Shown here piece by piece: positions 2,895 to 40,540 of a stretch of 61,851 bases of DNA. The position numbers were made by a program, and so were the translations under genes. The notes under the pieces were generated by a model. That model worked only from the letters and a program-made list of their open reading frames with translations. It ran no database searches and was not told where the DNA came from. How positions within the stretch are numbered: position 1 is the stretch's first letter; every line of letters starts with the position of its first letter. Source of the stretch: a virus; IMG/VR virus record IMGVR_UViG_3300048597_000294, positions 1 through 61,851 of that record. One strand, written 5' to 3'.

Positions 2895-5800
2895 ATGGCC
2901 ACCGCCCAAACCGACCTGAACATCATCGCGCGGCTCGTCGACGAGGTCTCCGGCCCGCTCGCGAAGCTCCGCGCGAACATCCAGGCCCTGGGAACGGCCA
3001 AGGTCGGTGACGTCGGGGAACTCGCGAAGCTGCGCGTGCAGTCCGAGGACGCGGCGAAGGCCATCGAGGAGATCGCCGTCAAGGCGGCGCCCGCGCTCGC
3101 GGTCGTGCAGCAGTCGGCGCAACGTGTTGAGCAGGAGCTGGCCACGATCACGACCGCGGCCACGACCGCCGCTGCCGCGCAGGCCGAGGCGGATCGGCTG
3201 CTCGCCGACCTCGAACAGACCAGCGTCGGACGGCTGCAACGCGAGCGCGCGGAGGCCGCCGCGTCGGTCGAGACGATCAAGGCGCGCGTCGATGCGCTGA
3301 AGCTCGAAGGCGCGCAGGTCGACAAGCTGAAGGAGGCCGCTGCGCGGTTCCAGCAGGACCTCACGCTGCGCGTGGACACGCGTGCCGCGCAGGAGGCGCT
3401 CGAGCTCGAGGCGCGCACGGAGCAGATCCGCACGACCGTGCTCTCGCGCGAGCGCGAGCTGGCACGCCTGCGCGGCCAGACCGCCAACGTCGCCAAGCTC
3501 GACGCCGCGATCGCCGACCAGGCCGCGCGCGCACTGGACGCCGCCGCCAACCGCCAGATCGCCGCGCTGCGCGAGCAGTACCGAGGGCGCGCGGACCTCA
3601 ACGCCCTGCTCGACGAGGCGACCAAAAAGCTGCGCGAGCAGGTGGAACTCGACAAGCGCATCGTCCGCGCGACGTCGTCGACCGCCACGGGACGAGGAGC
3701 GAACATCCAGGCCGCCGGCGCGGGCCTGAGCCAAGCCGCGCAGGGCCTGTCCATCTTCGGCGCGAACGGCGCGGCGCGCATCGCGCAGACCGGATCGGCG
3801 CTCTCGAGCATCTCGACCGAACTCAGCGGGATCGGGGCAGCGGCGACGGGCGCCGGCATCGCGCTGGGTGCCGCCGCTGCCGGGGTCATCGCCGTGGGGG
3901 CGGCCTCCGCTGGCCTCGTCGCCGCCGCGCGCTCGGCCGCGTCGTTCGACGAGGAGTTCTCGCGCCTGCCCGGCGTGATCAAGCTCTCGCGCGAGGAGGC
4001 GAAGGAACTCCGCGCGCAGATCTTCGATCTCTCGCGCACGTTCGACCTCGATGCCACGGCCACCGCCAATGCCTACTTCACGGCGTTCGCCGAGGGCGCG
4101 CGCAACGCCGCCGAGGCGACGGAGCTCGTGGTCGCGGCCTCGAAGCTCGAAGCGGCGGGCCTCGCGACGCAGCAGCAAGCCATCCAGGCTGTCAGCGACG
4201 CCTACGACACGTTTGGCGCGAGCATCGGCAGCGCGACCGAGGTCACGGCCAAGCTCAACGCGACCGCCCTCGCCGCGGGCCTGCCGCTCCAGGTCGTCGC
4301 CAACAACATCGGCGCGCTCGGCCGTTCCGCGAAGCTGATCAACGCCGACTTCGAGGAGACGCTGGGCCTCTTCGCGCAACTCAAGAACGATGGCGCCAAG
4401 CCGCGCCAGGCCGTGTCCGAGATCGATGCCGCGTTCCGCGCGCTGGCCGATCCGTCGGTGCGCCAAGCCTTGGCGCGCAACGGCGTGATCATCTCCGACT
4501 ACTCGATCCAATCGAAGGGCGCCACGTCCGCCCTGCGCGAGATCGGCAAGGTGATCGGCACGAATCGCGACGCGCTCGCGGCCGTGAGCCCGGAACTGGC
4601 GCGCGCGCAGGGCGCCATCCGCACGGTGACCGGCAGCGCGCAGAAGCTCGCGGAGACCACGGCCTCGATCCAGGTCGGCAAGGACATCGACCTCTCGCGA
4701 CTCCAGGAGTCGTTCAAGGTCATCGAGGGTGCGGCCAACAGCCTGAAGTCGGTCCTCGTCGAGGTGTTCGGCCCGATCGTCCTTGACTCGCTGGCGACGA
4801 TGATCAGGTCGCTTCGCGAGAACGAGGGGCTGGTGCGCGCCGTCGCTACCGCGATCGCCGTCGCCGCCGTCGCGACCAAGCTCTGGTTCGACTACCTCGA
4901 ACTCGTGGTCGAGAAGCTCAAGTTCCTCAACCCCGCGTACTACGCCGGGTCGCTGATCCAGAAGCTGCTCCCGGACGGTTCGAAGGAGACCATCAAGGGG
5001 GTTGCCGGCGCAGCGGGCGAGGCGAAGACGATCTTCGATCAGTTCACCGAGGCCTTCAACACCGCCCAACGCGCGCTGTCACAGCCCAAGACTTCGCCTG
5101 CGCTGAAGGAGACGGTCGAGAAGGTCAGGGAGCTGCGCGAAATCGCCGCGATCGACATCAACGGCCTGCTGCGTGTTGGCGATCTCGACCAAGCGCAGAA
5201 GCGCGCTGACGAGCTTCTCGCGACGTTCAACGAACTGCGAAAGACGTCCATCCTGCCGTCCGACATTGAGCAGACGCAGGCCGACGTGCTGGTCTCAGCG
5301 GTCAAGCGCTCCGTCGCGAACGCCCGCAGCTACCTGTCCGGAGAGATCAAGCAGCTCATCACGGACGGGGACTTCGAAAAGGCGACGGCGGCGGCTGCCC
5401 GGTTCGGGAAGACCCTTGAGGGCCTGATCGGCCGCGTCACCGTCGACCCCGAGGCCAATCGTGCGTTCGTCGAAGCCACCGAGCTCCTAAACGAGGCGAT
5501 CCTCGCTGCCGGCAATCCGATCGTCCAGATTGGAACCGACATCAGCCAAGTGATGGCGGCTGCCGGCAAGGACGTCAACTCCTTGTCCATCAACGTGACG
5601 CGCCTTCAGGGCGTGCTCGGCCAGACGCCCGCGAGCATCTTCGCGCAGACCGACATCCAGCGAGAGCTGGACCGCGTCTTCGCGACGCTGACCAAGGAGG
5701 TCCCGCCACCGCTCAAGATCCCGCTGGAGATCGAGCCGGACCAGGCTGTGAACGACGCGCTCGCGACCGTGCGACGCCTGTCCCAAGAGGCCACGCAGGA

Positions 5801-7598
5801 CGGCATCGTCAAGATCGAGCTGCTCGAGCCGAACAAGAAGGCCGAGTTCGACCGCGCGCTCGAGGTCGTGCGCCGCTTCGCCGCCTCGTTGAAGGAGGTG
5901 TCCGCGATCAAGGGCGACGTCTCCCTGTCGCTCAAGAACGTGAAGCTCGACGACGCGGACATCCGCCGCACGTTCGACGCGTTGCGCACGCGCATCGAGG
6001 CGTCCGTGGTACCCGTCGAGGTCAAGGCGCGTCTCACGCTCGAGGCGAACCAGGCTGAAGCCGACGCGCTCAAGGCCGCGGGCCTCGCGCGCGTGCAAGC
6101 CGAGGTCGAGAAGTGGCGCAACGTCACGCGCGAGATCGCCCAGCAACGCGTGCGCGTCACGCAGGCATCGATCCAGGCCGCGCGCGAGGTGCGCGAGATC
6201 CTCTCGGGGTTCGGCGCGGACATCAGCCGGCAAGCCGTGTCGGCGCAGGACTCGATCCGGCAGGCCGTGGCGAAGGCGTCCGACGACCTCGTCGCGTCGT
6301 TCCTGCGCGCGCCGAGCTTCAACCCGGGTCCGGTTCTCCGCGCGCTCGCCGAAGTGCAGGAGGCGGGTCGCCAGGCCATCGCGCGCGCCGGGCTCCAGTC
6401 GTTCCAGGACGACCTCATCGAACTGCGCTCGGCTCAGATCGGCCTCTTCGATCCGTTCAGCAACTCGCTCGCACAGGTGCAACTCGAGCTGGACCGCACG
6501 CGGGTCGGCATCGAGCGGATGCTGGAGGCGAGCCCGGAGAAGACCGACCTCGCGCAGCAACTCAAGGAGGCCGCGGAGAAGCGAGCGGACGCCGAGCGTG
6601 GCCGTATCGCGGTCGAGTTCGCGCTGCGACCCAAGATCGAGTTCGACCAACTGCTCGTGCAGGCGGAGATCGCGCGCAAGCTGAAGCCGGACATCGACGA
6701 ACTCGCCGAGGGTGTGCGCATTCTCCTGTCCGGTGATCCGTTGCCTGACGGCCTCGCCAAGCGCATCGACGAGCTGCGCGAGAAGGTGCGCGCGCTCCAA
6801 CGTCAGGCGGACGAGACGGCTGAGCGCTTCCGCTTGGGGTTCGGCGAAGGCCTCCAACAGGCCATCGACGACCTCAACAACAAGTACCGCCAGGGCTTCA
6901 CGCTCGCGCAGGACGCGGTCAGCGCGCTCACCGACAACTTCGCGGACTTCATCTACAAGCTCGGGCAGGGGAAGGCCTCGTTCAAGGACTTCGCCAACAG
7001 CGTGCTCCAGGACATCCAGCGCATCCTCTCGCGCAACCTCGCGGAGAACCTGCTGGGGAACCTCCTCGGCTTCTTCACGGGCGGCGCCAACGTCCTCGGT
7101 GGACTGGCCCCGGCATCTGCGTCCGCGGCGGTGGTGCCCGGTCTCGGATCCACGTTCTACGGAACCGGATTCGAGCGCGGCGGGGTGATGGCTGGCCAGA
7201 TGCTCTCGCCGCGCGGCATCGAGGCCTACGGCGCCTTCACCCGCTCGTTCGAGAAGGGCGGGATCATGCCGGGCGGGATGATGCCCGTTCGCGCGTACGC
7301 ATCCGGCGGCGTCGCGACGTCTCCGCAGATGGCGATCTTCGCCGAGCGCCCGGGCATGGCCGAGGCGTTCGTCCCGTTGCCCGGCGTGGGGCGCGGCATC
7401 CCGGTGGAGTTCCCCCGCGGCGCACCTGGCGGCGGCGGGAACACCGTGCACGTGTCCATCCACATGAGCGCGATCGACTCGCGCTCCGGTGCCGAGTTCC
7501 TCCAACAGCACGCGCGCGAGATCGGTGACCTCGTGCAGGGCCAGATCTCCAGCGGATCGAACAACCGCCTGCGCCGGAGCGTTGGGGGGCAGCGATGA
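2895..7598 (+). CDS. Tape measure protein (1567 aa)
   Basis: This is the longest, mostly helical protein of the late operon and follows the chaperones directly. It has long Ala/Glu/Arg coiled-coil regions, Gly/Ala-rich hydrophobic stretches (about residues 310-345 and 650-670) that could insert into the host membrane, and a C-terminal segment of the lambda-H/tail-tip type: residues near 1350-1420 read KDFANSVLQDIQRILSRNLAENLL, and the end carries FAERPGMAEAFVPLPG, typical of tape measure C-termini. At about 0.15 nm per residue, the family rule, the tail would be near 230 nm. It sets tail length and is thought to enter the cell with the DNA. Confidence 0.95.
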   Translation: MATAQTDLNIIARLVDEVSGPLAKLRANIQALGTAKVGDVGELAKLRVQSEDAAKAIEEIAVKAAPALAVVQQSAQRVEQELATITTAATTAAAAQAEADRLLADLEQTSVGRLQRERAEAAASVETIKARVDALKLEGAQVDKLKEAAARFQQDLTLRVDTRAAQEALELEARTEQIRTTVLSRERELARLRGQTANVAKLDAAIADQAARALDAAANRQIAALREQYRGRADLNALLDEATKKLREQVELDKRIVRATSSTATGRGANIQAAGAGLSQAAQGLSIFGANGAARIAQTGSALSSISTELSGIGAAATGAGIALGAAAAGVIAVGAASAGLVAAARSAASFDEEFSRLPGVIKLSREEAKELRAQIFDLSRTFDLDATATANAYFTAFAEGARNAAEATELVVAASKLEAAGLATQQQAIQAVSDAYDTFGASIGSATEVTAKLNATALAAGLPLQVVANNIGALGRSAKLINADFEETLGLFAQLKNDGAKPRQAVSEIDAAFRALADPSVRQALARNGVIISDYSIQSKGATSALREIGKVIGTNRDALAAVSPELARAQGAIRTVTGSAQKLAETTASIQVGKDIDLSRLQESFKVIEGAANSLKSVLVEVFGPIVLDSLATMIRSLRENEGLVRAVATAIAVAAVATKLWFDYLELVVEKLKFLNPAYYAGSLIQKLLPDGSKETIKGVAGAAGEAKTIFDQFTEAFNTAQRALSQPKTSPALKETVEKVRELREIAAIDINGLLRVGDLDQAQKRADELLATFNELRKTSILPSDIEQTQADVLVSAVKRSVANARSYLSGEIKQLITDGDFEKATAAAARFGKTLEGLIGRVTVDPEANRAFVEATELLNEAILAAGNPIVQIGTDISQVMAAAGKDVNSLSINVTRLQGVLGQTPASIFAQTDIQRELDRVFATLTKEVPPPLKIPLEIEPDQAVNDALATVRRLSQEATQDGIVKIELLEPNKKAEFDRALEVVRRFAASLKEVSAIKGDVSLSLKNVKLDDADIRRTFDALRTRIEASVVPVEVKARLTLEANQAEADALKAAGLARVQAEVEKWRNVTREIAQQRVRVTQASIQAAREVREILSGFGADISRQAVSAQDSIRQAVAKASDDLVASFLRAPSFNPGPVLRALAEVQEAGRQAIARAGLQSFQDDLIELRSAQIGLFDPFSNSLAQVQLELDRTRVGIERMLEASPEKTDLAQQLKEAAEKRADAERGRIAVEFALRPKIEFDQLLVQAEIARKLKPDIDELAEGVRILLSGDPLPDGLAKRIDELREKVRALQRQADETAERFRLGFGEGLQQAIDDLNNKYRQGFTLAQDAVSALTDNFADFIYKLGQGKASFKDFANSVLQDIQRILSRNLAENLLGNLLGFFTGGANVLGGLAPASASAAVVPGLGSTFYGTGFERGGVMAGQMLSPRGIEAYGAFTRSFEKGGIMPGGMMPVRAYASGGVATSPQMAIFAERPGMAEAFVPLPGVGRGIPVEFPRGAPGGGGNTVHVSIHMSAIDSRSGAEFLQQHAREIGDLVQGQISSGSNNRLRRSVGGQR

Positions 7599-10547: not shown

Positions 10548-11006
10548 ATGCCGCGCAAGGACGTGATCGAGGTGCCCTACCTGGACCTCGTGCACCTGCC
10601 GTACAAGCGTGGCGGCACGACCATGGAGGGCCTGGACTGCCGCGGCGTCACGCTGATCGTGCTGCAGCGCATGGGTCGCACGGTGCCGCCCGGGGCGTTC
10701 CCCGCGACGCTCGACCAGATGCTGTCCGACTGCGGGTCGATCGCCGCACGCGCCGACGTCGAGGAGGTCGTCGACCCGCGCGCGCCCTGGGCCAAGCACT
10801 GGAAGCGCGTGCGCCTGGCGTCGGCCAACGTGGGTGACGTGGCCTTCTGCTACGACGGCGAGGAGGCGCACGTCGCGCCGCTGCTGTCCAAGCCCAAGCA
10901 CGGGCGGCCGTCCTACGTTCTCAGCGCGACCCGGGAACATGGCGTAGTGGTGGTGCCCACCGCGAAGCTCAAGAACCTGATCGGGTTCTACGCGCTGGTC
11001 CCCTGA
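10548..11006 (+). CDS. Tail tip peptidase, NlpC/P60 family (lambda K-like, no JAB domain)
   Basis: The 152 residues hold an NlpC/P60-type core: Cys31 in GLDCRGVT and His108 in GDVAFCYDGEEAHVAPLL. These cysteine peptidases cut peptide links in peptidoglycan, and in phage tails they help the tip pass the cell wall. Lambda K also has an N-terminal JAB domain, which is absent here. The gene lies between L and the I-J fusion, as K does in lambda. It is the only recognisable peptidoglycan hydrolase in the genome. Confidence 0.82.
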   Translation: MPRKDVIEVPYLDLVHLPYKRGGTTMEGLDCRGVTLIVLQRMGRTVPPGAFPATLDQMLSDCGSIAARADVEEVVDPRAPWAKHWKRVRLASANVGDVAFCYDGEEAHVAPLLSKPKHGRPSYVLSATREHGVVVVPTAKLKNLIGFYALVP

Positions 11007-14000
11007 TGATCTTCGTCCACGAAGTTCCGAACCCGTTCGAACCGACCTGTCGCACCACCGTGGTCGATCGAACGGCAGCGTCCGTCGCCGACCTCGTGCC
11101 GGCGAAGTGGCGCCAGACCCGCAGCGTCGCGCCGTACGTGAACGGGCGGGCCGCGAGGATGGACACGGCGGTCGGCGATGGGGATCACGTGACGTTCACG
11201 CTGCAGCCGCACGGAGCCGAGGCCGTGTTGCTGTTCTCGAAGGCCTTCGTCTACCTGTTCCTCGCCGTGGCGCTGAACTCGTTCCGGCCCAAGCTGCGCG
11301 CGGCGTCCGACCGCAACGAGGATCGATCGCAGCACTACGGCTTCGACGGCATCCAGTCGACGCGCACCGAGGGGCTGCCCGTTCCTCGGATCTACGGCCG
11401 CTTCCGATCAGGCGGCCAGATCGTCAACGAGTTCGTCGAGAGCAAGGGCTCTCTCGGGAGCTGGTACAACGTCATCATCGACTTCGGGTGGGGGCCGTAT
11501 CAGTCGATCGCGGGCATCACGACGAACACGCACCCGTCGAGCCCCCGTCGCACGCGTGCATCCAGCGCCAACGGCATCCCGGCCGGGCTGTTCATCAACG
11601 ACACGCCCGCGTCCCAGTTCGACGACGTCGAGCTGCACACGCGCCTGGGCACCAACGAGCAGGACTGGATCCCCGGCTTCGATCGCGACACGTTCACCAT
11701 CCCGATCCAGCGGGACCTGTCGGCGCCCGAGGGGACGACGACCAGCTTCGATCCGTTCATCTCGACGACCGCGCCGAGCACGGGCGAGGACTCGCTGTGG
11801 ACCACGTACGCCGAGGAGTACGACGTCACCGATCGGGAGATCGACGCGTTCACGATCAAGACGCGGTTCCCCGCCGGCCTGTACTCGATCAACACGTCCT
11901 CGAACTCGATCAACACCATGCCCTTCGCGCTGGCGGTGCGTTACCGCGAGCTCGACGGGTCCAACCTGCCGATCACGACGGGGGGCCTCGACGGGGACGG
12001 ATGGGTGCGCCCGCTGCCGACGCGCGTGCTGTACGCGGCCGAGCAGAGCGACATGCGGGTCGACTACACGTTCCCGACCTACGACCCGCAGACGTGGACG
12101 CGGCCGACGCTGAACGGACTCCTGCGCTGCTCGCCGGTCGATGGGGGCATTGTCTCCGCTGTCACCGGCTACCTGACCCGCTCGGCCGCCAACGTCGCAT
12201 CCGATGGCGTGCCCTCGGGATGGAGCGAGGCCAACGGCATCCGCGAGCTGACCGTCATGGGCTGGGTCGCGTTGCGTGCGAACGGCACGTTCCACGGCTA
12301 CAGCGCGGACGCGAACCAGGACCGACTGCAGACGGCGGCGCCGGTGTTCGCGTGGCTCAACGAGTCGACCCTGCGCGGCTTCGAGCTGCTGTTCCAGACG
12401 AAGACCTTCACCCTTTCGCCCGGCCAGACGCGCACGCGCATCACGCCGATCGCGCGCGTCGGGGACGGTGGAACGGTGCGGGAGTTCTATCCGCGCAACC
12501 CCGGCGGCGGCGCCGGCTCGACAGCGCAAGAGATCGGGGACGTCCCGATCCTCATCGGCCTGTCGCAGTTCGACAACCTCTCGACCGCGGGCTTCTACCA
12601 CGTCGGCTTCACCTACAAGCAGGATGTCGACGGCACGAACGATCGCCTGCGCATCTTCATCAACGGTGAGGTCGTGTTCGAGCTCGTGGGCCCGCTGACG
12701 ATCCGCCCGCCGCAAGTCGCGTCGCCCGCGGCGGTCTTCGTCGCGACCGACGGCCGCAACACGGGTGGCGAGGCGTTCACGCTGCGAGGCTGGCTGGCCG
12801 AGGTGTCGGTGCAGCCGACCGAGCTGAGCCAGGCCGAGATGGCGCGGCGCTACAACAACGGCGCGGGCCTGTACGAGCCGAACGACGCGTCCTCCTTCGC
12901 GACGTTCCACTTCGAGGAGAACTACCCCTCGGGCGTGCAGGGCAACGGCCAGACGATCCTGAACAGCGGCGCCGTGCTGGGCAGCCTCACGAGCATCTTC
13001 AACGGCGGCACCGCCTCGCACTTCTCCAGCGGCGTCCAGAAGGGCTTCATCGACCGCGAGGTCGCGACCAACACGCCCAAGCGCGCGAAGTACCGGATCC
13101 AGGTCATGCGCGCGACGCGCAACTACACCGGCTCCAACGGCTCGGACGACTGCCAGTGGGAAGCGCTCCTCACGCACGTGGAGCAGAAGTACCGCGCGCC
13201 CGGCCGCGTGCGCATGGGCCTGCGCGTGAAGGCCCAGGAGCAGCTCGCGGGCTCGCCGCCGAAGATCTCGGCTGTCATCGAGGGGGCACTCGTGCGCGTC
13301 TGGGACGGCGTCGACGCGAACGAGCCGTACATGCCGCTGGTCTTCTCGCGCAACCCGGCGTGGGTGGCCTACGACGTGTGCACGCACCCGCGCGGCGGGA
13401 TGGGCGCGCACGTGAGTCCGAAGGACCCCGACCTGGTGTCGCTGAAGGAGTGGGCGGACCGGAACGACGAGTGGGTCTACGACCTGCGGGGGAACCTCCT
13501 CGAGGTGGACGACTCGGACACGGCCAAGGCGATCAGCGACATCGGCTACACGAGCCTCGGCGGCCTGGTCAGCTCGTTCTTCGTGATCCTGCGCTCGGCC
13601 TACATCGGGAACATCCCCGACAACTACAAGGTCGGCGCGTTCGTTGGCTTCTCCGGCATCCCCACGCCCGACGACTCGGCGCAGATCCTGCTGGACATCA
13701 ACGAGGACAGCGTCGGTGGGTGGGAGATCGTGTCCGTCGACAACGGCTTGGTGAGCGGCACGCCACGCATCTATCTGCGCTACGACACGTTGACCTTGCC
13801 GGCGCTGCCGTGGACGCCCTCCGGCTCGCTCGTGTCCTCGGCATCGCCGCTTGCGATCACCGGCACGATGCGCGGGGTCGAGCGCCGCCACCGCTACGAC
13901 GGAGCCTTCGACGAGGCCGAGGGTGGGTGGGATGCGCTCATCTCGTTGTGCGACACGGCCGGGGCGGTGCCGCTGCGGAGCGGCCGGAAGATCTTCTTTC

Positions 14001-16054
14001 GCGTCGACGCGCCGCGGCTCCCCACGGACATGATCACGCCCGCGAACATCCTGCGCGACTCGTTCGAGTACGAGTTCACGGGCCCGGACGACAAGCCGAA
14101 CGCGTTGGACATCGAGATCCTCGACGAGGAGGCCAACTTCGAGCGCGCGACGGTCTCCGACGAGCACCCGAGCATCACGGGCAGCGTGTCACTCTCGGAG
14201 ATCCGGCGCAGCAGCGTCCGCCTCAAGGGCGTCACGCGGCGCAGCCAGGCGAAGCGCTGGGCGCGCGAGGCGCTGAACCAGAACTACCTCATCCGGCGAG
14301 CGGGCAAGCACGTCGCGAGCGCGGACGCGTTGCCGCACCGTCCCGGCGACGTGTTGCAGATCGCGCACGACATCATCCCGCGCGGCAATGGCGGGCGCGT
14401 CCTCGACGGCTCGACGTCATCCTCGATCCTGCTCGATCGCCCGATCACGCTCGCGGCCGCGACGACCTACAAGCTCGCCGTGCGCAGCGCGACCGCGGGC
14501 GTCGCTGCCGCGTTCGAGACGCGAACGGTGACGAACAGCGCGGGGACGTACGAAGGCCTCGAGGGCGAGGCGATCACGGTCTCCTCGGCGTTCTCCTTCA
14601 CGCCCGCCGCCGAGGACGTGTTCATCCTCTGCCAAGTGGGCAAGGAGCTGCGCGTCACCCTGCGCTCGATCGGTCTGACGCGCGACCTGCGGCGGGAGGA
14701 GACCTGGGTCGAAGCGCCCGAGGGGATCCACATCGAGGACGGCTCGGAGATCGACGACCTGCCCGCGTCGACGCTGTCGAGTTCCTCGAGCGCGATCACG
14801 TTCGGCGCTTCCTCGGACACGGGCCAGCTCCCCGACAACGTCGACATGCTGCCGCCCGCTGAGCGCGTGCTGCGGGACAACGCGGGCTCGTTCACGACCG
14901 GCGTGCAGCTCTCGTGGGTCGCCCCGACCTCGCGCGCCATCAGCGAGCAGATCGTGTGGGCGTCGCGCGAGCGTGGACCGTGGCGCGAGGTTGCGCGCGT
15001 GGGGCCGTCGGTCGCGACCACGTTCGTTCCGGTTCCGCGTGTGGAGCCTGGCGCGTCGCTGTCGTTCGCGATCCAGCCTGTGACGCGCAGCGGCGCGCGC
15101 CGCGAACCGGCCGACTGCGGCCCGCGCAGCCTGCGCCTCGTGGGCGTGGGGCCCGCCCCCTCCGCGCCGACGGGCTTGGCCGCGTCGATCGTCAGCGAGC
15201 GGGTCGTGTACTCGTGGGACGCGGTCTCCGACGACATCACCGCGATCGAGCTGCGCCGAGGTGGCTGGATCCTGGGCCAGCCCATCGCCACGGTGCCGCG
15301 CGGCTCCAACAGCTTCGGCCCGACCTCCGACTTCGTCTCCGTCCCCGCCGGCGAACCGGGCGCCCTCGTGGTCATGCGCACGCGCAACGGCGCCGGCGCG
15401 CTCTCTCCTCCCGTTGCGATCCGATTCGCCCCCTCGATCCTCGACTCGACGACGCTCGAAGACCTGGACGCGAGCGTGCTCGCGAGCCAGGAGTGGTCCG
15501 AGTTCGGCGACGGCTGGGTCGACGACTCGTTCCCCACGCAGAACGGAACCCTTCTCGACATGATCCGGCGCGACGACGGCGCGATCGAGTTCGACGGGTC
15601 CTCGCTGACCGGTTCGTACACGGCCGCGGCGCCGGACCTCGAGGTGGGTGGGCAGGCCGAGGCCCTGTACCTGTCGGCGACGGTCGAGGCGTACCAGGTG
15701 CACCCCATGACCTGGGACCAGGCTACGTGGACCTGGGCGGATCCCGCCGCGCAGCAGTTGTCGTGGGAGGGCCCGGTCAACGAGATCGGAGACGGCGCCG
15801 ACGAGCGCTGCACGCTGGCGATCGAGGTCCGCTTCCGCAACCGCGCGCGCGACTGGTCGGCGTGGACGCCATTCAAGCCGGGGCGCACGGTCGCGCTGGG
15901 GGTGCAGTTCCGCCTCGTCGCGACGCGACCTTCCGCGTCCTACCAAATCCGGGTGACCCGCTTCGCGACGGTATTGGTGCGCGAGCCCACGACGAAGTTC
16001 GATCGGGACGAGACCACCGTGTACCTCGAGAGGATGATCCATGGCAGCCGGTAG
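11006..16054 (+). CDS. Tail tip attachment protein, I-J fusion with a LamG-like insert (1682 aa)
   Basis: Residues 1-70 look like a ubiquitin-like beta-grasp domain (VVDRTAASVADLVPAKW, then GDGDHVTFTLQP), followed by a hydrophobic stretch (about 72-91), which together match tail assembly protein I. From residue 100 on the protein is a J-like central hub: IYGRFRSGG at the start, and the 'WDALISLCDTAGAVPLRSG' hub region near residues 970-990. Residues ~398-640 form an inserted laminin-G/concanavalin-like domain. Fibronectin-type segments lie near 1300-1480. J proteins bind the receptor and form the tip. The start overlaps the previous stop (TGATG). Confidence 0.88.
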   Translation: MIFVHEVPNPFEPTCRTTVVDRTAASVADLVPAKWRQTRSVAPYVNGRAARMDTAVGDGDHVTFTLQPHGAEAVLLFSKAFVYLFLAVALNSFRPKLRAASDRNEDRSQHYGFDGIQSTRTEGLPVPRIYGRFRSGGQIVNEFVESKGSLGSWYNVIIDFGWGPYQSIAGITTNTHPSSPRRTRASSANGIPAGLFINDTPASQFDDVELHTRLGTNEQDWIPGFDRDTFTIPIQRDLSAPEGTTTSFDPFISTTAPSTGEDSLWTTYAEEYDVTDREIDAFTIKTRFPAGLYSINTSSNSINTMPFALAVRYRELDGSNLPITTGGLDGDGWVRPLPTRVLYAAEQSDMRVDYTFPTYDPQTWTRPTLNGLLRCSPVDGGIVSAVTGYLTRSAANVASDGVPSGWSEANGIRELTVMGWVALRANGTFHGYSADANQDRLQTAAPVFAWLNESTLRGFELLFQTKTFTLSPGQTRTRITPIARVGDGGTVREFYPRNPGGGAGSTAQEIGDVPILIGLSQFDNLSTAGFYHVGFTYKQDVDGTNDRLRIFINGEVVFELVGPLTIRPPQVASPAAVFVATDGRNTGGEAFTLRGWLAEVSVQPTELSQAEMARRYNNGAGLYEPNDASSFATFHFEENYPSGVQGNGQTILNSGAVLGSLTSIFNGGTASHFSSGVQKGFIDREVATNTPKRAKYRIQVMRATRNYTGSNGSDDCQWEALLTHVEQKYRAPGRVRMGLRVKAQEQLAGSPPKISAVIEGALVRVWDGVDANEPYMPLVFSRNPAWVAYDVCTHPRGGMGAHVSPKDPDLVSLKEWADRNDEWVYDLRGNLLEVDDSDTAKAISDIGYTSLGGLVSSFFVILRSAYIGNIPDNYKVGAFVGFSGIPTPDDSAQILLDINEDSVGGWEIVSVDNGLVSGTPRIYLRYDTLTLPALPWTPSGSLVSSASPLAITGTMRGVERRHRYDGAFDEAEGGWDALISLCDTAGAVPLRSGRKIFFRVDAPRLPTDMITPANILRDSFEYEFTGPDDKPNALDIEILDEEANFERATVSDEHPSITGSVSLSEIRRSSVRLKGVTRRSQAKRWAREALNQNYLIRRAGKHVASADALPHRPGDVLQIAHDIIPRGNGGRVLDGSTSSSILLDRPITLAAATTYKLAVRSATAGVAAAFETRTVTNSAGTYEGLEGEAITVSSAFSFTPAAEDVFILCQVGKELRVTLRSIGLTRDLRREETWVEAPEGIHIEDGSEIDDLPASTLSSSSSAITFGASSDTGQLPDNVDMLPPAERVLRDNAGSFTTGVQLSWVAPTSRAISEQIVWASRERGPWREVARVGPSVATTFVPVPRVEPGASLSFAIQPVTRSGARREPADCGPRSLRLVGVGPAPSAPTGLAASIVSERVVYSWDAVSDDITAIELRRGGWILGQPIATVPRGSNSFGPTSDFVSVPAGEPGALVVMRTRNGAGALSPPVAIRFAPSILDSTTLEDLDASVLASQEWSEFGDGWVDDSFPTQNGTLLDMIRRDDGAIEFDGSSLTGSYTAAAPDLEVGGQAEALYLSATVEAYQVHPMTWDQATWTWADPAAQQLSWEGPVNEIGDGADERCTLAIEVRFRNRARDWSAWTPFKPGRTVALGVQFRLVATRPSASYQIRVTRFATVLVREPTTKFDRDETTVYLERMIHGSR

Positions 16055-16457: not shown

Positions 16458-18233
16458 ATGCGCGCATGGCGGACACTGGCCGATCTTGGGCGCGTGCTTC
16501 GGCTCGTACCCAAGGCCTCCGGCGCGAACACCGGGGTCGTGGTCACGGAGACCGCGGCTCCGAACGGTCCGTCCATCGCGCCGTTCTGCTCGGACTCGTC
16601 CGTCGCGAACCTGAACCTCGAACTGTCCGGCTTGGGCACGGGCATCGTGCGCGCGAACGGCTCGGCCGTCGTCACGAACGCGACATTCCCCGCGCACGCC
16701 ACGCGCCACAAGCACGGCGGCTCGGACGAGGTCGCGACCGAAACGCCGGCCGCGTACGCGATTCCCAAGGCGGGCAGCGCGGGCACGCTCGCCGCCGGCT
16801 GGCTCCCGGCCTACGACGTGACCAACACGGCGGACCCGCAAGTCGAGATCGTGTCCAGCGACGGCACGTGCAGCGACGTGGCCTTGACGCACATCATCGT
16901 GCTCATCGATGCGTCGCGGAACGACGTTGCCTTCGTGCTGCCCGACACGGGCGCGAACACCGGCCGCATCGTGCACGTCGTCTACTATCTCGACGACCCG
17001 GCGTACGTCGCGACGATCGGGTCGCCTGAGAACATCAACGGCGCACCGAGTGTTCCGCTGACGTACCTGGGCCAGGTGCGCTCGTTCACCTCTGACGGGT
17101 CCACCTGGTACGAGCTCACCGAGGACGCTCTGCAAGCCGCGACGGCCTACCGTGTTCCTCGGGCGGGATCGTCGGGAGCACTGCACATCGGCTGGATTCC
17201 GACCGGGAGCTCGGGATCGACCGTCTGCGTGGGCAACGACTCGCGCCTCTCGGACTCGCGCGCGCCGTCGGGCAGCGCTGGTGGCGCACTGGCCGGCACG
17301 TACCCCAACCCCACGCTCTCGAACGCCAACCTCAACGCCATCGGCGGATTGACCAGTGCGGCGAACAAGGGGCTGCAGTTCACGGGCAGCGGCACCGCCG
17401 CAACCTTCGACCTCACGGCGTTCGCCCTGACATTCCTCGACGACGCGACGGCCTCTGACGTGCGCACGACGCTCGGACTCGTCATCGGGACGAACGTCCA
17501 AGCCTACGACGCCGAGCTGGCCGCTATCGCGGGACTCACCTCTGCCGCCGACAAGGCGCCGTACTTCACCGGCTCGGGCACGGCCGCGACGATGACGGTG
17601 ACCTCGTTCGCGCGCTCAATCCTCGACGACGCGGACGCGGCCACGGCGAAGCAAACGCTGCTGATCGGCTCGGCCGACGACGACTTCTATTCGGCGGTCA
17701 CGACGCAGTACACGTCATGGTACGTGGCCAACGCGCGCACAGGCGTCGCCTTGGGCACCTTCCCGATGACGGCCAACAGTCTGTACGCGGTTCCGTTCCG
17801 GGCACCTCGGCGCGGCGGCACGATCTCGGACCTGCGCCTGCGTGTGACGACTGGCGTCGCGGCCACGAACATCCGCGTGGGGATCTACACGAACAAGAGC
17901 GAGACGAACCCCTACCCCGACGCCAAGGTCCAGGACATCGGTGCGGGATCCTCGGCCACGAGCTCGACGTCGATCTCGACCTCGCCGAACCAAGCGCTCA
18001 CGCCGGGTGCGCTCTACTGGCTCGTGTGCGTGTCGGACGGCGCCCCCACGATCCGGGCTGGCTCGACGAACGCGGCCGGCATCACGCTCGGCTTCACAAA
18101 CGAAACGGCCACGGCTCCCAACACCAACCTGTGGGGGGCGCACACCTACGGCGCCCTCCCGAGCACGTTCCCCGCGAGTTGCACCGTGGCCACGGGCACG
18201 TTCCCGGCGTTCTTCCTGAAGTTCAGCGCCTGA
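16458..18233 (+). CDS. Tail fibre protein (591 aa)
   Basis: The protein contains an [13 protein letters not shown] segment, a signature of phage tail fibre shafts, and at least two related repeat units (near residues 285-345 and 350-400) of the form '[20 protein letters not shown]' followed by '[15 protein letters not shown]', common in trimeric fibres. A C-terminal globular region of about 160 residues, rich in Ser/Thr, probably carries the receptor-binding surface. The gene follows the tip protein and ends ten bases before regulatory motif copy 2. Confidence 0.85.
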
Positions 18234-18289: not shown

Positions 18290-18676
18290 GTGCCGCTGAC
18301 CCAGGTCATCCCCGCCGTCGATCCCGTCGCCGATCGGCCGAGCGAATTCCCCGACGCGTTCAACGACGCGATGGAGAAGCGCGCGTCGCTCGACTACCGC
18401 ACGATCACGCATGCGGACTCGCCCTACAGCGTCGCGGAGGAGGACCAGCTCCTGATCGCCGACGCGTCCGGTGGAGCGATCACGATCAACCTGCGCCCCG
18501 TGGCCTCTTCGTCGGGGCGCGTCGTGCGCGTCAAGGCGATCTCCGTCGCCGGCGGCAACGTGACCATCGACGGCAACGCGTCCGAGACGATCGACGGCGC
18601 GACGACCAAGGTCCTCTCCGCGCAGTGGGCGAGCGCCGCCATGCACTGCAACGGGTCTTCGTGGCTCCTCATCTGA
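18290..18676 (+). CDS. Fibre-tip or tail accessory protein (128 aa)
   Basis: The N-terminal part resembles small phage proteins that begin with a 'FPDAFNDAMEKRA' helix. The C-terminal 80 residues have an 'AEEDQLLIADASGGAITINL' beta-solenoid-like strand pattern, also seen at the ends of many phage fibres. The start is GTG, 47 bases after motif copy 2. A structural role at the distal tail is inferred from both pattern and position. Confidence 0.7.
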   Translation: MPLTQVIPAVDPVADRPSEFPDAFNDAMEKRASLDYRTITHADSPYSVAEEDQLLIADASGGAITINLRPVASSSGRVVRVKAISVAGGNVTIDGNASETIDGATTKVLSAQWASAAMHCNGSSWLLI

Positions 18677-18772: not shown

Positions 18773-19165
18773 GTGAGCGTGCCGAACGACCCGACCGTTC
18801 GCGAGCTGTCGCTCGTGATCAACAACGTCACCGAACGGCAGCGCGAGATGGCGGAGAACCAGCGCGAGATCACGAAGGCTCTCCAGGAGACCGCGCGCAC
18901 GCTCGAGGGAGTGACCGAACGCCTCGAAGGCCTCGAGACGCGCGTCTCCGACAAGGCCACATCCATGGACGAGATCAAGGAGCACGTCGAGAAGGCGCGC
19001 ACCGACCTCGCCGACCACGACAAACGGATCGACCGCATCGAGCAGTCGTCCCTCCGCAACCAACGGATCGCCAACTGGATCTTCGGCGGTGGCCTGATCG
19101 CGGCCGTCTCCACCGTCGTCCTGCTCTGGAAGATCGTCCAGGCCCTGCCCGACAGCACCCCGTGA
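18773..19165 (+). CDS. Coiled-coil protein with C-terminal TM helix, XhlA/holin-like (130 aa)
   Basis: Residues 1-95 are a charged helix with heptads (RQREMAENQREITKALQE, then TERLEGLETRVSDK), and residues ~100-125 are a single membrane helix (WIFGGGLIAAVSTVVLLW). This is the architecture of XhlA, a helper of phage-type lysis, and of some holins or pinholins. The next gene encodes a lipoprotein, consistent with a lysis cassette. The family match is by architecture; identity as a holin is not proven. Start GTG at 18773. Confidence 0.65.
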   Translation: MSVPNDPTVRELSLVINNVTERQREMAENQREITKALQETARTLEGVTERLEGLETRVSDKATSMDEIKEHVEKARTDLADHDKRIDRIEQSSLRNQRIANWIFGGGLIAAVSTVVLLWKIVQALPDSTP

Positions 19166-19173
19166 GGAACCCC

Positions 19174-19674
19174 ATGCTGAACCCGATCACCTGCAATCGC
19201 CCCCGCGCCACCATCGCCTTCTTGCTGGTCTGCCTCTTCGCCGCCGCTCTCGCGCTGTCGTTCTCCTCGTGCGGCGTGACGCCGGCACGATTCGACGACT
19301 ACCAGCGCGCCGTCGAGCGCAAGGACAAGGCCATCGCGAACTCGACGGTCGCGTTCGTCGAGGAGCGGATCGACGAGAAGCAGCACCTCGACAACGTCGA
19401 CAAGGCGCAGAAGGAACCGGAAGCCATCGTCACGGCCGCGAAGAACGACCTCGGTGCGCTCACCGAGTGGGGCGACTTCGCGCTCGCGATCGGCAAGACG
19501 CTCGGCGTGCCGGGCATCGTCACGGGTGCCGGGATGCTTGCCCTCGACCGCATCCGGAACAACCGCCGCCGCAAGCGTGGCGAGCCCGTGGACACCGACG
19601 GCGACGGCATCCCCGACGCGCAAGACGACCAGCCGCTCGTGCCCAACGCGCCAGCGCCCGCTCCAACGACCTGA
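19174..19674 (+). CDS. Predicted lipoprotein with Ca-binding-like tail, lysis-region (166 aa)
   Basis: A hydrophobic signal region (AFLLVCLFAAALALSFSSC) ends in a lipobox with Cys near residue 33. A helical, charged segment follows (ERIDEKQHLDNVDKAQKEPE), then a hydrophobic Gly/Ala stretch (about 106-126), then DTDGDGIPDAQDD, a calcium-binding repeat as in thrombospondin type 3/dockerin-like modules. The upstream ATG at 19174 is preferred. Position next to the XhlA-like gene suggests an outer-membrane spanin-like role, but the acidic calcium-binding end is unusual for spanins. Confidence 0.6.
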   Translation: MLNPITCNRPRATIAFLLVCLFAAALALSFSSCGVTPARFDDYQRAVERKDKAIANSTVAFVEERIDEKQHLDNVDKAQKEPEAIVTAAKNDLGALTEWGDFALAIGKTLGVPGIVTGAGMLALDRIRNNRRRKRGEPVDTDGDGIPDAQDDQPLVPNAPAPAPTT

Positions 19675-19689
19675 TCGAGGAGACCTGAC

Positions 19690-20385
19690 ATGAACCTGCT
19701 TCGACCCTTCATCGCGATGTTCCTGCTCGTGGCCGCGCTCGCGGCGACGGCTCCCGCCGGCACGGCCCCTCCGTGGGGCACCGGTCCCGGCAACGCGCAG
19801 TACACGGCGTTCTTCTCGAACCAGCGGCAGGCCACGGTGTTCAACACCGGCCCGCAGTTCGTCATGCCGCGCTTGCCGATCGGCTACAACTGCACCGAGA
19901 TCCAGGTGCGGGTGTACTGGACCGTGCAGCGTGACGTGACGCTGGACGAGGTCTCGGGCGACGCGCCCGGCGTCGTCGAGTTCAGCTCGACCGACGTGAA
20001 CGGCCGCTCGAGCTGGCAGGGCGTGACCTTCCGCACGAACGACGGCGTCGACTTCGCGTGCGTGCGCGCGGCCGTGCCGCCCTTCACGATCTTCGTGCCT
20101 CCTGGCGGGTCGTTCGGAGGCAACAACGGCTTCGAGCAACAGCTCGGCGGCGGGCTCACGGGCACGCCGTACGAGATGATCCAGGACTTCGTGTTCCCGG
20201 TCACCACGCCGGGCTTCCTCGAGGGCCCGACGCCGGGCCTGCTCGATCCGTCCGTGCCGTGGCGCGCGACGTTCCACGGGCTCTTCTCGCAGCGGACGTA
20301 CTCGGGCGTGGTCAACACCACCGCGCGCACCGTCGTCGGCGGCTCCCTCCAGTTCACCTTCGTGCGCGCGCCCGCCGCGCCCTGA
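19690..20385 (+). CDS. Secreted beta-rich protein with signal peptide (231 aa)
   Basis: A signal peptide (about residues 1-24, ending ATAPAGTA) is followed by a beta-sandwich-like domain with WTVQRDVTLDEVSG and TARTVVGGSLQFTF strands. It resembles the 'choice-of-anchor' extracellular domains of environmental bacteria rather than a phage structural protein, though no anchor motif is seen at the C-terminus. Two cysteines (in YNCTE and FACVRA) may pair. A secreted protein here is odd for a virion gene and might be acquired from a host; an endolysin role is not supported by any motif. Confidence 0.6.
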   Translation: MNLLRPFIAMFLLVAALAATAPAGTAPPWGTGPGNAQYTAFFSNQRQATVFNTGPQFVMPRLPIGYNCTEIQVRVYWTVQRDVTLDEVSGDAPGVVEFSSTDVNGRSSWQGVTFRTNDGVDFACVRAAVPPFTIFVPPGGSFGGNNGFEQQLGGGLTGTPYEMIQDFVFPVTTPGFLEGPTPGLLDPSVPWRATFHGLFSQRTYSGVVNTTARTVVGGSLQFTFVRAPAAP

Positions 20386-20400
20386 TCGGAGCCGACGCCC

Positions 20401-20814
20401 GTGACTTGGACCACCGGAACGCTGCAGCCGCTCGAGGTCAACCTCACCGGCGTGGATACGATCCTGCAGGGAGCGACGTACTACCGTGAGATCCCGCTCA
20501 CGAAGAACGGCTCCCCGCTGGATCTGACGCAGTTGACCGGTGGATCGCCGGGCCAGAAGGGGCTTCGCGTGCAGCTCCGCAAGACGGCGGGCGATCCAGG
20601 AACGGCTGGCGTCGCGACGGCGACGATCAAGAGCCCGGCGACCGCGGGCATCGTCGTGCTCGTCATGGAAGCGGTCGACACCGCGCAGATGACGGAGGCG
20701 GAGGGGGTCTACGACGTCGAGGGCTACGACAAGACGATGTCCCCCGAGGGCGTCGACCGCCTGATCCAGGGATCCTGGAAGCTGAGCCTCGAGGTTACGA
20801 AGTCCACCTCATGA
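20401..20814 (+). CDS. BppU-like baseplate/tail adaptor protein (137 aa)
   Basis: The order of strands and the end 'GVYDVEGYDKTMSPEGVDRL' plus 'IQGSWKLSLEVTKS' resemble the N-terminal domain of phage baseplate upper proteins, which connect receptor-binding enzymes to the tail. It starts with GTG, and its stop overlaps the start of the sulfatase gene (ATGA), so the two are translationally coupled. Inference: it may attach the sulfatase to the virion. Confidence 0.6.
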   Translation: MTWTTGTLQPLEVNLTGVDTILQGATYYREIPLTKNGSPLDLTQLTGGSPGQKGLRVQLRKTAGDPGTAGVATATIKSPATAGIVVLVMEAVDTAQMTEAEGVYDVEGYDKTMSPEGVDRLIQGSWKLSLEVTKSTS

Positions 20815-22385
20815 CGAAGCTCGAGGGATCGATCACCGGCGCGCGCGTCCTTGGTGGAAGCGTCACGCTCGGCGCAACGCTGGGCGGATCGGTCACGCTG
20901 GGCTCGCAGCTCGGCGGATCGATCTCCGCGACGCCCGATCCCACGGACCTTTCCGTGATCGTCGTGATGCTCGACGACCTCGGCACCGAACTGCTCGACT
21001 GGATGGGCGTCGGCGAGATCTACACGACCGACCCCGCCTTCGAGTACGCGCCCACGCCGTTCCTGTCGCAGATGGCCGTCGACGGGATCTGGTGGTCGCA
21101 GTTCTACGCCACGCCGCTGTGCAGCCCGTCGCGCGGCCGCTTGCACACGGGGCTGCGAAGCGACCAGACCGGCATCGGTCAGAACTGCCGCCAGCCGTCG
21201 CGCAACCTCGACGTTCAGTATCCGGCCTACGGCTTCACGCCCTCGTCGTCGATCACCTACCTCGCCAAGAAGGTGCGCACCGTGCGCCCCGCGGTCTCGA
21301 CCGCGTACTTCGGCAAGTGGCACATCAACGACATGTGGGGCTACGACGCCGCCAACGCGCGCGAGGACTACCCTCCGAACGTCAACCTCACCGACTACTG
21401 GAAGTTCGGCTTCCAGGAGTTCCTCGGCGGCCCGCTGCCGTACGGCGGCTCCTACGAGTGGTGGAAGGTCTCGGGCTCGGGCGGCACCGCGAACGCACCG
21501 GAGTACGTGAAGCCTGGCACGCCCGCGGTCTACGACGAGACCAACTTCGTCGGCGCCGTCGAGTGCGCGGCCGCGACGTCCTGGCTGTCGGCGCGCACGT
21601 CGCAGTTCTTCTGCGTCGTCTCGATCGACCCGCCGCACAGCCCCGTGACCATCCCGCCCTTCACGATGCTGTCGAGCGCCACGCAGACGGCGCTGACGAC
21701 CGCGGGCCTGGCTGCGGGCGACGCCGTCACGTTCTCGGCCTCGGCGCCGAACTTCCGCCTGGCTTACCGCACGGCCGTCGAATGCGCCGACACGATCGTG
21801 AAGCGCGTGTGGGACTCGGTCCCCGTCGCGCTGAAGCCCAAGACGGTCCTGATCGTGGTGAGCGACAACGGCACCCAGCTCGACGCCGTGCCGTTGGGCT
21901 TCTCGCACTGGAAGGACACCCTGTACTGGGGCGGCACGCGCGTGCCGTGCCTCATGAAGGGCCCCGCGATCGTCTCGCCGAACCGCGAGGTCCGACAGAT
22001 CGCCGACATCGCCGACCTCTACAACACCGTCGTGGACCTGATGGGGTGCAAGACCACCACGACCACGGCGCCGGAGTCGATCTCGCTACTGCCCGCGATG
22101 CAGGACCTGCTCGACCGCGAGCACGTCCAGGCCATCAAGCCCTTCGTGATCGAGCAGATGTTCTATCCGCTCGGCGCGACGAACCCGGCCACGTTCCAGG
22201 TGAGCACGCGCGGCCGGAGCGTGACGGACGGTCGGTACCGCATCGTCTACTCGCCCGACATCGCCGGCGGGATCGGCTTCTACGACACGGCCACGGACCC
22301 GCTCGAGGTCACGAACATCTACGGCTCGCAGACGAGCGAGTTCAACCGGCTGAACGCGGCCCTGGTGGCGAAGCTCCCGGTCTGA
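20811..22385 (+). CDS. Type I (formylglycine) sulfatase with N-terminal decapeptide repeats
   Basis: The 524-residue protein has all core motifs of the sulfatase/alkaline phosphatase superfamily: metal Asp55-Asp56 (VVMLDDLG), the Cys104-Ser-Pro-Ser-Arg108 formylglycine site continuing LHTG, Lys169 and His171 (GKWH), His276 (PPHSP), Asp352-Asn353 (SDNG) and Lys368. It hydrolyses sulfate esters, most likely on a polysaccharide. Cys104 must be oxidised to formylglycine by a host enzyme, since no maturase gene is seen here. There is no signal peptide; instead residues 4-43 form four decapeptide repeats (LGGSVTLGAT type). Its place after the tail fibre and adaptor genes suggests a virion enzyme acting on the host surface or matrix. 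Confidence 0.9.
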   Translation: MTKLEGSITGARVLGGSVTLGATLGGSVTLGSQLGGSISATPDPTDLSVIVVMLDDLGTELLDWMGVGEIYTTDPAFEYAPTPFLSQMAVDGIWWSQFYATPLCSPSRGRLHTGLRSDQTGIGQNCRQPSRNLDVQYPAYGFTPSSSITYLAKKVRTVRPAVSTAYFGKWHINDMWGYDAANAREDYPPNVNLTDYWKFGFQEFLGGPLPYGGSYEWWKVSGSGGTANAPEYVKPGTPAVYDETNFVGAVECAAATSWLSARTSQFFCVVSIDPPHSPVTIPPFTMLSSATQTALTTAGLAAGDAVTFSASAPNFRLAYRTAVECADTIVKRVWDSVPVALKPKTVLIVVSDNGTQLDAVPLGFSHWKDTLYWGGTRVPCLMKGPAIVSPNREVRQIADIADLYNTVVDLMGCKTTTTTAPESISLLPAMQDLLDREHVQAIKPFVIEQMFYPLGATNPATFQVSTRGRSVTDGRYRIVYSPDIAGGIGFYDTATDPLEVTNIYGSQTSEFNRLNAALVAKLPV

Positions 22386-22795: not shown

Positions 22796-24082
22796 ATGAC
22801 GACGAAACTCGCAGTCGAGATGGTCCCGATCCAGAAGCTGTTCCCGAGCCCCTCGAACCCCAGGCACAACGAGCCCGGCGTCCCGCACGTGGCCGCGTCG
22901 CTCAGGCGATTCGGCTGGAAGCAGCCCGTGGTCGCGAAGCCGAGCGGCGAGGTGATCGCCGGCAACACGAGGCTGAAGGCAGCGCAGTCCCTCGGGATGA
23001 CGGAGGTCCCGGTCGTGTGGTTCGACGGGAGCGAGATGGACGCCACCGCGTACTCGATCGCCGACAACCGCACGCACGAGTTCTCCACGTGGGATGACGA
23101 GGCGCTCGCGAAGCTGCTGTCGACGCTGCGCACTGAGGACGACCTCGACGGCGTCGGGTTCACCGCGGCCGAGCTGGACGAGCTCGTGATGAGCATCGAC
23201 ACGGGGCCGAGCAACCTGGTCGACCCGGGCGCGCAAGTGCCGCCCGCGCAAGCCGTCACTCGTCGCGGCGACCTGTGGATCCTCGGGCGCCACCGGCTTC
23301 TGTGTGGCGACTCGACGAGCGCAGAGGACATGCAGCGCTTGATGGGAGAGGAGCGCGCAGTGCTGCTCGCGACCGACCCGCCCTACCTCGTCGACTACCA
23401 GGGCGGCAACCACCCGCAGAGCTGGGCCAACAAGCCGGAGGTGCGCGACAAGCACTGGGACGACTACCAGGACCCGACGAGCGGCGTGGAGTTCTTCCGC
23501 AAGTTCCTCGAGGTGGCGCTGCGCCACTGCATCGAACGCGTCCCCGTGTATCAGTGGCACGCGACGCGCCGGCAGGTGATAGTCGAGGAGGCGTGGAAGG
23601 CGAACGGCCTGCTCGTGCACCAGACCATCATCTGGGTCAAGGCGCGCGCGGTGCTCACGCGATCGCACTTCATGTGGAAGCACGAGCCGTGCTTCTACGG
23701 ATGGCCGGAGGGCTCCATGCCCGAGTCCGATCAGCGTCCGCCGCCCAGCGAGACCACGGTGTGGGAGATCGACCAGGTGGGGCAGCAGGACGGGATCCAT
23801 CCCACCCAGAAGCCGCTCGCGATCTTCGAGCGCCCGATGCAGTTCCACACGCGGCAGCACGAACTTGTGCTTGAGCCGTTCTCGGGCAGCGGATCGCAGC
23901 TCATCGCGGCCGAGCGGATGGGGCGGCGCTGCAACGCGATGGAGATCTCGCCGGCGTTCGTCGATGCGGCGATCGCGCGGTGGGAGAAGGCGACCGGGCT
24001 CAAGGCCACGCTGCCGGACGGCGAGACCTTCGAGCAGACGCGCGAGGCGCGGGGCGTTGCGGGACCCTCGGAGCCGGGCTAG
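22796..24082 (+). CDS. ParB-domain DNA methyltransferase (428 aa)
   Basis: Residues ~8-120 are a ParB/Srx-like nuclease domain (PSPSNPRHNEPG, then GEVIAGNTRLKAA, then DNRTHEFSTWDDEAL). Residues ~185-400 form a DNA methyltransferase with DPPY (near 191) before the SAM-binding FSGSGSQLIAAERMG (near 361), the beta-class motif order for N6-adenine or N4-cytosine enzymes. It acts on phage or host DNA, probably for protection against restriction. An AGGAGG ribosome binding site precedes the ATG. It stands alone between two control regions and ends before a strong bidirectional terminator. Confidence 0.9.
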   Translation: MTTKLAVEMVPIQKLFPSPSNPRHNEPGVPHVAASLRRFGWKQPVVAKPSGEVIAGNTRLKAAQSLGMTEVPVVWFDGSEMDATAYSIADNRTHEFSTWDDEALAKLLSTLRTEDDLDGVGFTAAELDELVMSIDTGPSNLVDPGAQVPPAQAVTRRGDLWILGRHRLLCGDSTSAEDMQRLMGEERAVLLATDPPYLVDYQGGNHPQSWANKPEVRDKHWDDYQDPTSGVEFFRKFLEVALRHCIERVPVYQWHATRRQVIVEEAWKANGLLVHQTIIWVKARAVLTRSHFMWKHEPCFYGWPEGSMPESDQRPPPSETTVWEIDQVGQQDGIHPTQKPLAIFERPMQFHTRQHELVLEPFSGSGSQLIAAERMGRRCNAMEISPAFVDAAIARWEKATGLKATLPDGETFEQTREARGVAGPSEPG

Positions 24083-24651: not shown

Positions 24652-24727
24652 GCCGGGGTGGAGCAGTTGGCAGCTCGTCAGGCTCATAACCTGAAGGTCG
24701 TCGGTTCGAGTCCGACCCCCGCCACCA
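24652..24727 (+). tRNA. tRNA-Met (anticodon CAT), initiator-like
   Basis: A full cloverleaf with encoded CCA: acceptor stem with a C:C mismatch at 2:71, D-arm GAGC/GCTC, anticodon stem TCAGG/CCTGA with loop CTCATAA, T-arm GTCGG TTCGAGT CCGAC. The body (GGGGTGGAGCAG, then GCTCGTC, then GGTCGTCGGTTC) closely matches bacterial initiator tRNAs, which have a 1:72 mismatch and three G:C pairs in the anticodon stem. Here the first of those three pairs is A:T, and 1:72 is paired, so it mixes initiator body and elongator features. Whether it serves initiation is unknown. Confidence 0.9.
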
Positions 24728-24736
24728 ACCGCGATC

Positions 24737-24809
24737 GCTGGGGTAGCTCAACGGTAGAGCGTCGCGCCGACGTGCGATGATCCAGGTTCGACTCCTGGCC
24801 CTTGCTCCA
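24737..24809 (+). tRNA. Degenerate tRNA-like gene, isotype uncertain
   Basis: D-arm GCTC AACGGTA GAGC, T-arm CCAGG TTCGACT CCTGG and encoded CCA (24807-24809) are clear. The acceptor stem has a T:T mismatch at 3:70 and a G:T pair at 4:69. The anticodon stem pairs well only if the loop has eight bases (GCCGACGT) and position 26 is missing, and the variable loop is then three bases. A seven-base reading gives GAC (Val), but the normal U33 is absent. It may be a decaying tRNA, an unusual one, or a tRNA-like element. Confidence 0.55.
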
Positions 24810-40118: not shown

Positions 40119-40540
40119 GCGGCTGCGCATCCGGCCGCCAGCTCGGCCCCGACGACGTCGACCCGTTCGAGGACCTCCTCGACACGGTGCGTGCGTACTT
40201 CGTCCAGCGGTACCGCGAGGGAAACGGGCGCCTGCCCGAGGCGCACCCGGGCGACCGCCAAGCCCTGCTCGTGCTCGTCTACGACGAGGCCGGCGGGCGG
40301 ATCGACGTCGCGCGTGCGTACGTCGACGAGCTGTTCGCCGCTGGGTTCGGCGGGGCCCCGTCGCTGTTCGAGATGTGGCTCGTCCGCGAGTGGTGGGTTG
40401 AGTGCAACGACCACGTCCCCCGGCAGCCGCTCTCGCAGAAGCTCCGCACGATGCTCGGCGAGCGCGTCCTGCGCGAGGGCGCGATCGTCCAGCAGGTCCA
40501 CGACAAGCGGCTCGGTCGGATGTGGAGGGGGACCGCGTGA
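40115..40540 (+). CDS. Helical early protein (141 aa), paralogue of 37456-37923
   Basis: [20 protein letters not shown], then [20 protein letters not shown], resemble the core of the protein at 37456 in order and residue pattern. It has no known motif. The start TTG overlaps the HNH stop (TTGA) and the stop overlaps the methyltransferase start. Confidence 0.65.

Follow-up and report, generated by a model that had tools for sequence, protein, structure and literature searches.

Phages are known to act on polysaccharides with lyases, glycosidases and deacetylases. Phage G7C reportedly carries one such enzyme on its tail, an O-antigen deacetylase tailspike. Carbohydrate sulfatases of the S1 type, among them S1_16 (9fo1), S1_19 (PsS1_19B) and human GALNS (4fdi), are cellular proteins and are mostly exported. 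Among predicted viral structures, the sulfatase fold was found only in giant eukaryotic viruses (Satyrvirus, Yasminevirus and Tetraselmis virus 1). For phages, FGE-domain proteins have been reported as DGR targets (PMC12724379, PMC4605624); FGE-domain proteins also appear as AMGs in the literature, and a review includes sulfatase in its listing of viral AMGs (PMC10029852). The literature searched, whose scope took in few subscription papers, yielded no report of a sulfatase carried on a virion.

The window analyzed here comprises the whole 61,851 nucleotides of virus record IMGVR_UViG_3300048597_000294 and carries on its plus strand a gene of 524 codons with an ATG start (20811..22385) that, on the evidence of sequence and structural model, encodes an S1-type formylglycine sulfatase with every active-site residue and predicted activity. 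The Pfam family PF00884 (Sulfatase) matches residues 49–412 with an E-value of 7e-25 and 88 bits (cut-off 25), covering positions 3–300 of the 301 in the profile, and SGSH_C matches residues 370–518 weakly. The protein also matches phrog_19870, whose function is unannotated in PHROG (E 9e-16), and solved sulfatases by sequence (E 7e-11 to 3e-10). In alignments, the formylglycine signature C104-S-P-S-R108 lies at 21120..21134, the active-site motif G168-K169-W170-H171 at 21312..21323, the metal-binding motif S351-D352-N353-G354 at 21861..21872 and the active-site lysine K368 at 21912..21914, all on the plus strand; with D55, D56 and a PPHSP motif containing H276, the set of catalytic and metal residues is full. 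The preliminary description of this DNA had called the gene a complete formylglycine-type sulfatase, which the family match, active site and fold bear out, and had located these motifs correctly except for GKWH, which occupies residues 168–171 and not 169–172. When the protein is aligned with 15 bacterial sulfatases, C104, P106, R108, K169, H171, D352 and G354 are invariant and D55, H276 and K368 nearly so; K368 does not vary across 21 phage and 22 bacterial sulfatases.

The structure prediction and comparison with known sulfatases that had been suggested as a check returned an alkaline-phosphatase-like sulfatase fold. The AlphaFold2 model (32 sequences) reached a pTM of 0.85, its catalytic core scoring high in confidence and residues 1–33 low, and a Foldseek search of the PDB gave 370 matches at E ≤0.001, led by the carbohydrate sulfatases S1_16 and S1_19 (E 6.4e-24; best TM by target 0.72–0.74). 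A related hydrolase with the same formylglycine active site could instead act on phosphonate or phosphate esters or on another surface substituent: the phosphonate monoester hydrolase 4uph is among the fold matches, the solved sulfatases are remote (15–20% identity in fold alignments) and the nearest phage relative has an unusual CSTTR motif. This is improbable for an enzyme that has every sulfatase catalytic residue and that most closely matches carbohydrate sulfatases (GALNS, S1_16 and S1_19) both in sequence and in fold. The enzyme shares fold, active-site residues and the CxPxR signature with the S1-type carbohydrate sulfatases, but it comes from a phage gene coupled to an adaptor-like gene of the phage, and the protein has decapeptide repeats near its N-terminus and no clear signal peptide. 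With the giant-virus enzymes it has in common a virus-encoded sulfatase fold, although those belong to viruses of eukaryotes and have no tail context, unlike this tailed phage. The FGE-sulfatase-domain DGR targets (PMC12724379, PMC4605624) share only the word "sulfatase" in their annotations: they have the maturase-like/lectin fold of PF03781 with diversified loops, whereas the window enzyme is the sulfatase itself (PF00884).

Positions 1–60 of the window recur at 61792–61851 with two mismatches, so this 60-bp terminal repeat is something other than an exact assembly overlap. The gene order passes from the head set at the right end into the tail set at the left end and, together with the terminal repeat, makes the window look like a circularly permuted, near-complete phage genome. 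It has genes for a portal, an HK97-type capsid and an integrase (PF00589, E 3e-21) and is apparently the near-complete genome of a temperate siphophage, so the sulfatase gene is not host flank. It closes a co-directional late block on the plus strand that includes the genes for the tape measure protein (2895..7598; phrog_24, E 5e-17), a J-like tip/host-specificity protein (11006..16054; PF13550 Phage-tail_3, E 2e-15) and a tail fibre protein (16458..18233; phrog_24210 tail fiber, E 2e-16). Four small genes and an adaptor-like gene separate the fibre gene from the sulfatase gene. The first small gene (18290..18676, plus strand) has a weak baseplate match (phrog_20556, E 8e-4); the other three (18773..20385, plus strand), known from gene calls and their sequences, have no firm family match and probably encode a coiled-coil or membrane protein, a lipoprotein-like protein and an exported protein, which would make them lysis-type genes. 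The sulfatase gene had been described as downstream of the fibre genes, which it is, and as inside the distal tail module, which is not strictly so: it lies about 2.6 kb past the fibre gene, at the end of the late block. The next co-directional gene, about 400 bp on, is a ParB–methylase fusion (22796–24082) that joins a ParB N-terminal domain to an N6/N4 DNA methylase; another methylase is encoded at 40537–41658. A tRNA-Met gene and an adjoining tRNA-like gene, with a two-base anticodon and unassigned by ARAGORN, occupy 24652–24809.

With a GC content of 0.681 and a GC3 of 0.952, the sulfatase gene is within the range of the phage's own genes and matches its neighbors, and thus gives no sign of being a recent foreign insert. 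The preliminary description had named a separate host-derived insertion not expressed late among the cases that would undo its reading. In a metabolic explanation, the sulfatase of a temperate phage would be an auxiliary or lysogenic-conversion gene that aids the host in recovering sulfate or carbon from sulfated glycans. The integrase, the Planctomycetota chromosomal sulfatases that are the nearest bacterial relatives and the listing of sulfatase genes among viral AMGs (PMC10029852) are in keeping with such a role. The gene, however, sits in a late block with a 4-bp overlap to the gene before it, is composed like the neighboring late genes and has no promoter-like site in its region (a weak test), and during lysogeny an enzyme without a clear signal peptide would have little access to extracellular polymers; a metabolic role seems very unlikely.

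The sulfatase probably sits on the phage tail and takes sulfate off a glycan of the host surface. We infer that it is attached to the virion, that formylglycine forms in it, what its substrate is and that it serves in adsorption; the proposed steps would run as follows. Late in infection, the enzyme would be synthesized in the cytoplasm of the host, where a host maturase would convert Cys104 to formylglycine. The decapeptide repeats at its N-terminus, together with the adaptor to which it is coupled in translation, would fasten it to the tail of the assembling virion. At the next cell, the tail sulfatase would strip sulfate esters from a sulfated polysaccharide of the surface or capsule, and desulfation may expose a receptor or loosen the layer, akin to the action of tail-borne depolymerases and deacetylases with other chemistry. 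Those phage proteins resemble the proposed enzyme in altering host surface polysaccharide from the tail before injection. The window enzyme differs in its sulfate-ester chemistry, in the host-made cofactor residue and in not being a beta-helix tailspike, and its virion location is putative.

The proposed docking segment consists of four decapeptide repeats in residues 5–44 (20823..20942, plus strand), EGSITGARVL, GGSVTLGATL, GGSVTLGSQL and GGSISATPDP. They show 15 identities at lag 10 out of 30 comparisons, a number matched by none of 10,000 shuffles, and the segment has low pLDDT. Scanning for the decapeptide pattern gave three matches, all tail proteins of Firmicutes-type siphophages, and was uninformative. 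Immediately upstream, a gene for a 137-residue adaptor-like protein (20401..20814, plus strand; phrog_1084, E 2e-12) ends at 20814 and overlaps the sulfatase start at 20811 in an ATGA, just as had been reported. The label "BppU-like" given to this adaptor fared worse: phrog_1084 is unannotated as to function, and no Pfam family, BppU included, matches at E-values up to 10. A comparison with the L-shaped tail fibre assembly family reached only E 0.0097, and no meaningful PDB match was found. The adaptor's fold model (pTM 0.33) is too poor for use, which leaves room for a possible remote relation to BppU. BppU, the upper-baseplate adaptor of lactococcal phage TP901-1, is comparable as a small gene near the fibre whose product could hold a receptor-side protein, but the window adaptor is linked by family only to phrog_1084.

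The relatives of the adaptor point to what such a pair of genes may do. The sole relative found in viral contigs, in L107, is 45% identical; within L107:1144-3550, the gene after it encodes a protein with decapeptide repeats, and next comes a carbohydrate-esterase-like gene, an alpha/beta-hydrolase that matches BD-FAE carbohydrate esterases (E 2e-23). The repeat protein starts with its decapeptides, which give 38 identities at lag 10, many more than at any other lag. In Planctomycetota contigs, an adaptor-family gene is fused to repeats (L112) or lies ahead of a fibre-like gene whose product has short repeats at its N-terminus (L115); in L108, L112 and L115 alike, adaptor-family genes adjoin fibre-like genes or repeats. 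The L107 arrangement hints at a place in phage tails where one enzyme can be exchanged for another, and adaptor and repeats together may form a docking slot for varying surface-modifying enzymes. By analogy with L107 and L115, the repeats of the window sulfatase would have such a docking role.

The same stretch of genes can be read another way. The lysis-type genes between the fibre gene and the adaptor/sulfatase pair mean that the pair could be a late accessory unit. The sulfatase might then be a late, non-virion enzyme that builds up in the cytoplasm, is freed at lysis and desulfates envelope debris and polysaccharide outside the cell, which would keep progeny from being trapped and let them spread. 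A position after lysis-type genes and the lack of a clear signal peptide agree with this, and signal-peptide-like N-termini in other phage sulfatases make an extracellular, non-virion role plausible in the group. Release at lysis would, however, leave unexplained both the decapeptide repeats and the coupling to an adaptor that in L107 has a homologue followed by genes for a repeat protein and an esterase-like enzyme, and it is on balance rather unlikely. As the preliminary description had stated, the window sulfatase has no clear signal peptide, as judged by eye and hydropathy only. L152, on a Planctomycetota chromosome, is its nearest bacterial relative and also lacks one, so this absence is not specific to virion proteins.

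Sulfatase genes also occur in other phages. An exact-peptide search of viral contigs gave no close relatives of the window sulfatase or of the J protein. A motif-based search of viral contigs identified a phage (L034) whose sulfatase is 39% identical to that of the window over its whole length and overlaps a short upstream gene by one base. By BLASTP no other gene of the L034 locus matches the window, and the phage is otherwise unrelated; its short upstream gene has no PHROG match, so homology to the adaptor is unproven. Further scans showed sulfatases in many viral contigs, some of which are bacterial. The phage enzymes fall into at least three groups in a tree of 43 sulfatases: the window and L034 (support 100/99), beside Planctomycetota chromosomal enzymes; a second clade of 11 members (support 100/99), labeled phage-only provisionally because bacterial sampling was limited to Planctomycetota; and the T4-like marine phages L050 and L067 with one bacterial enzyme. 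Several candidates were set aside. A Salmonella record from an isolate-phage collection, with bacterial chromosomal genes around its sulfatase, is misfiled or contaminated, and Campylobacter phage A11a (MG065691.1, 76112-91434; L165), with enterobacterial-looking chromosomal genes, is apparently so; faecal contigs were discounted as evidence, and L039 is a bacterial enzyme with an anSME-like neighbor.

Members of the second clade often lie beside virion genes (phrog_3758, minor tail, head and connector families). A gene for the virion structural protein phrog_3758 adjoins the sulfatases of L076 and L035 (L035 being outside the 11-member clade), a minor tail protein gene that of L038, head protein and head closure genes that of L040, and portal and tail tube genes that of L050; other members have neighbors without a family match. 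In the T4-like marine phage contigs L050 (1461-2864), L061 and L100, the sulfatase is inserted beside the portal gene. D55, C104, R108, K169, W170, H171, H276, D352, G354 and K368 are invariant in all 21 phage sulfatases, across which the median column majority is only 0.38; that catalytic residues are kept while typical columns vary suggests that sulfatase activity in phages is under selection. Signal-peptide-like N-termini occur in the second-clade enzymes of L037, L065, L071, L076 and L081, and by their sequences would fit export more than virion assembly, so not all phage sulfatases need be virion-borne. Along with the lysis-type genes that separate fibre and adaptor, these N-termini weigh most against the tail-enzyme reading. 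For the window enzyme, the repeats, the adaptor–repeat–esterase order of L107, the coupling in L034 and the recurrence of sulfatases beside virion genes lend circumstantial support to a place on the virion.

Maturation of the window enzyme would fall to the host. None of the 14 sulfatase-bearing viral records, the window included and several of them fragments, has an FGE (PF03781) or anSME (TIGR03942) gene, so the enzyme, if active, would depend on a host maturase. The closest bacterial kin are Planctomycetota chromosomal sulfatases, Planctomycetota being the sole phylum sampled, and FGE-family genes are numerous in the genomes that hold them; one such gene lies about 290 bp away from a related sulfatase. 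Both results agree with the dependence on a host maturase already proposed for this phage. Searches with the J protein and the capsid in Planctomycetota gave weak matches only. The +2 position of the signature is proline in the window and in 13 other phage sulfatases. Non-canonical signatures with the other catalytic residues kept are CSTTR in the nearest phage relative (L034:9923-11479) and CSQSR in L058:2427-3617, L062:6215-7402 and L085:5335-6525.

Tailed phages may, as a tentative generalization, have repeatedly and independently recruited formylglycine sulfatases as tail desulfating enzymes against bacteria with sulfated glycans, through an adaptor and short-repeat slot that carries carbohydrate esterases in other phages, with progeny that depend on a modification made by the previous host. 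A phage sulfatase of this kind would widen the list of phage polysaccharide enzymes to sulfated surfaces and would suggest that some bacteria show sulfated coats as phage barriers. The phage sulfatases with CSQSR and CSTTR signatures offer a test of maturation rules. Infectivity would hinge on a host-installed formylglycine, and if this is true, the maturase of the previous host would decide whether the phage progeny are infectious.
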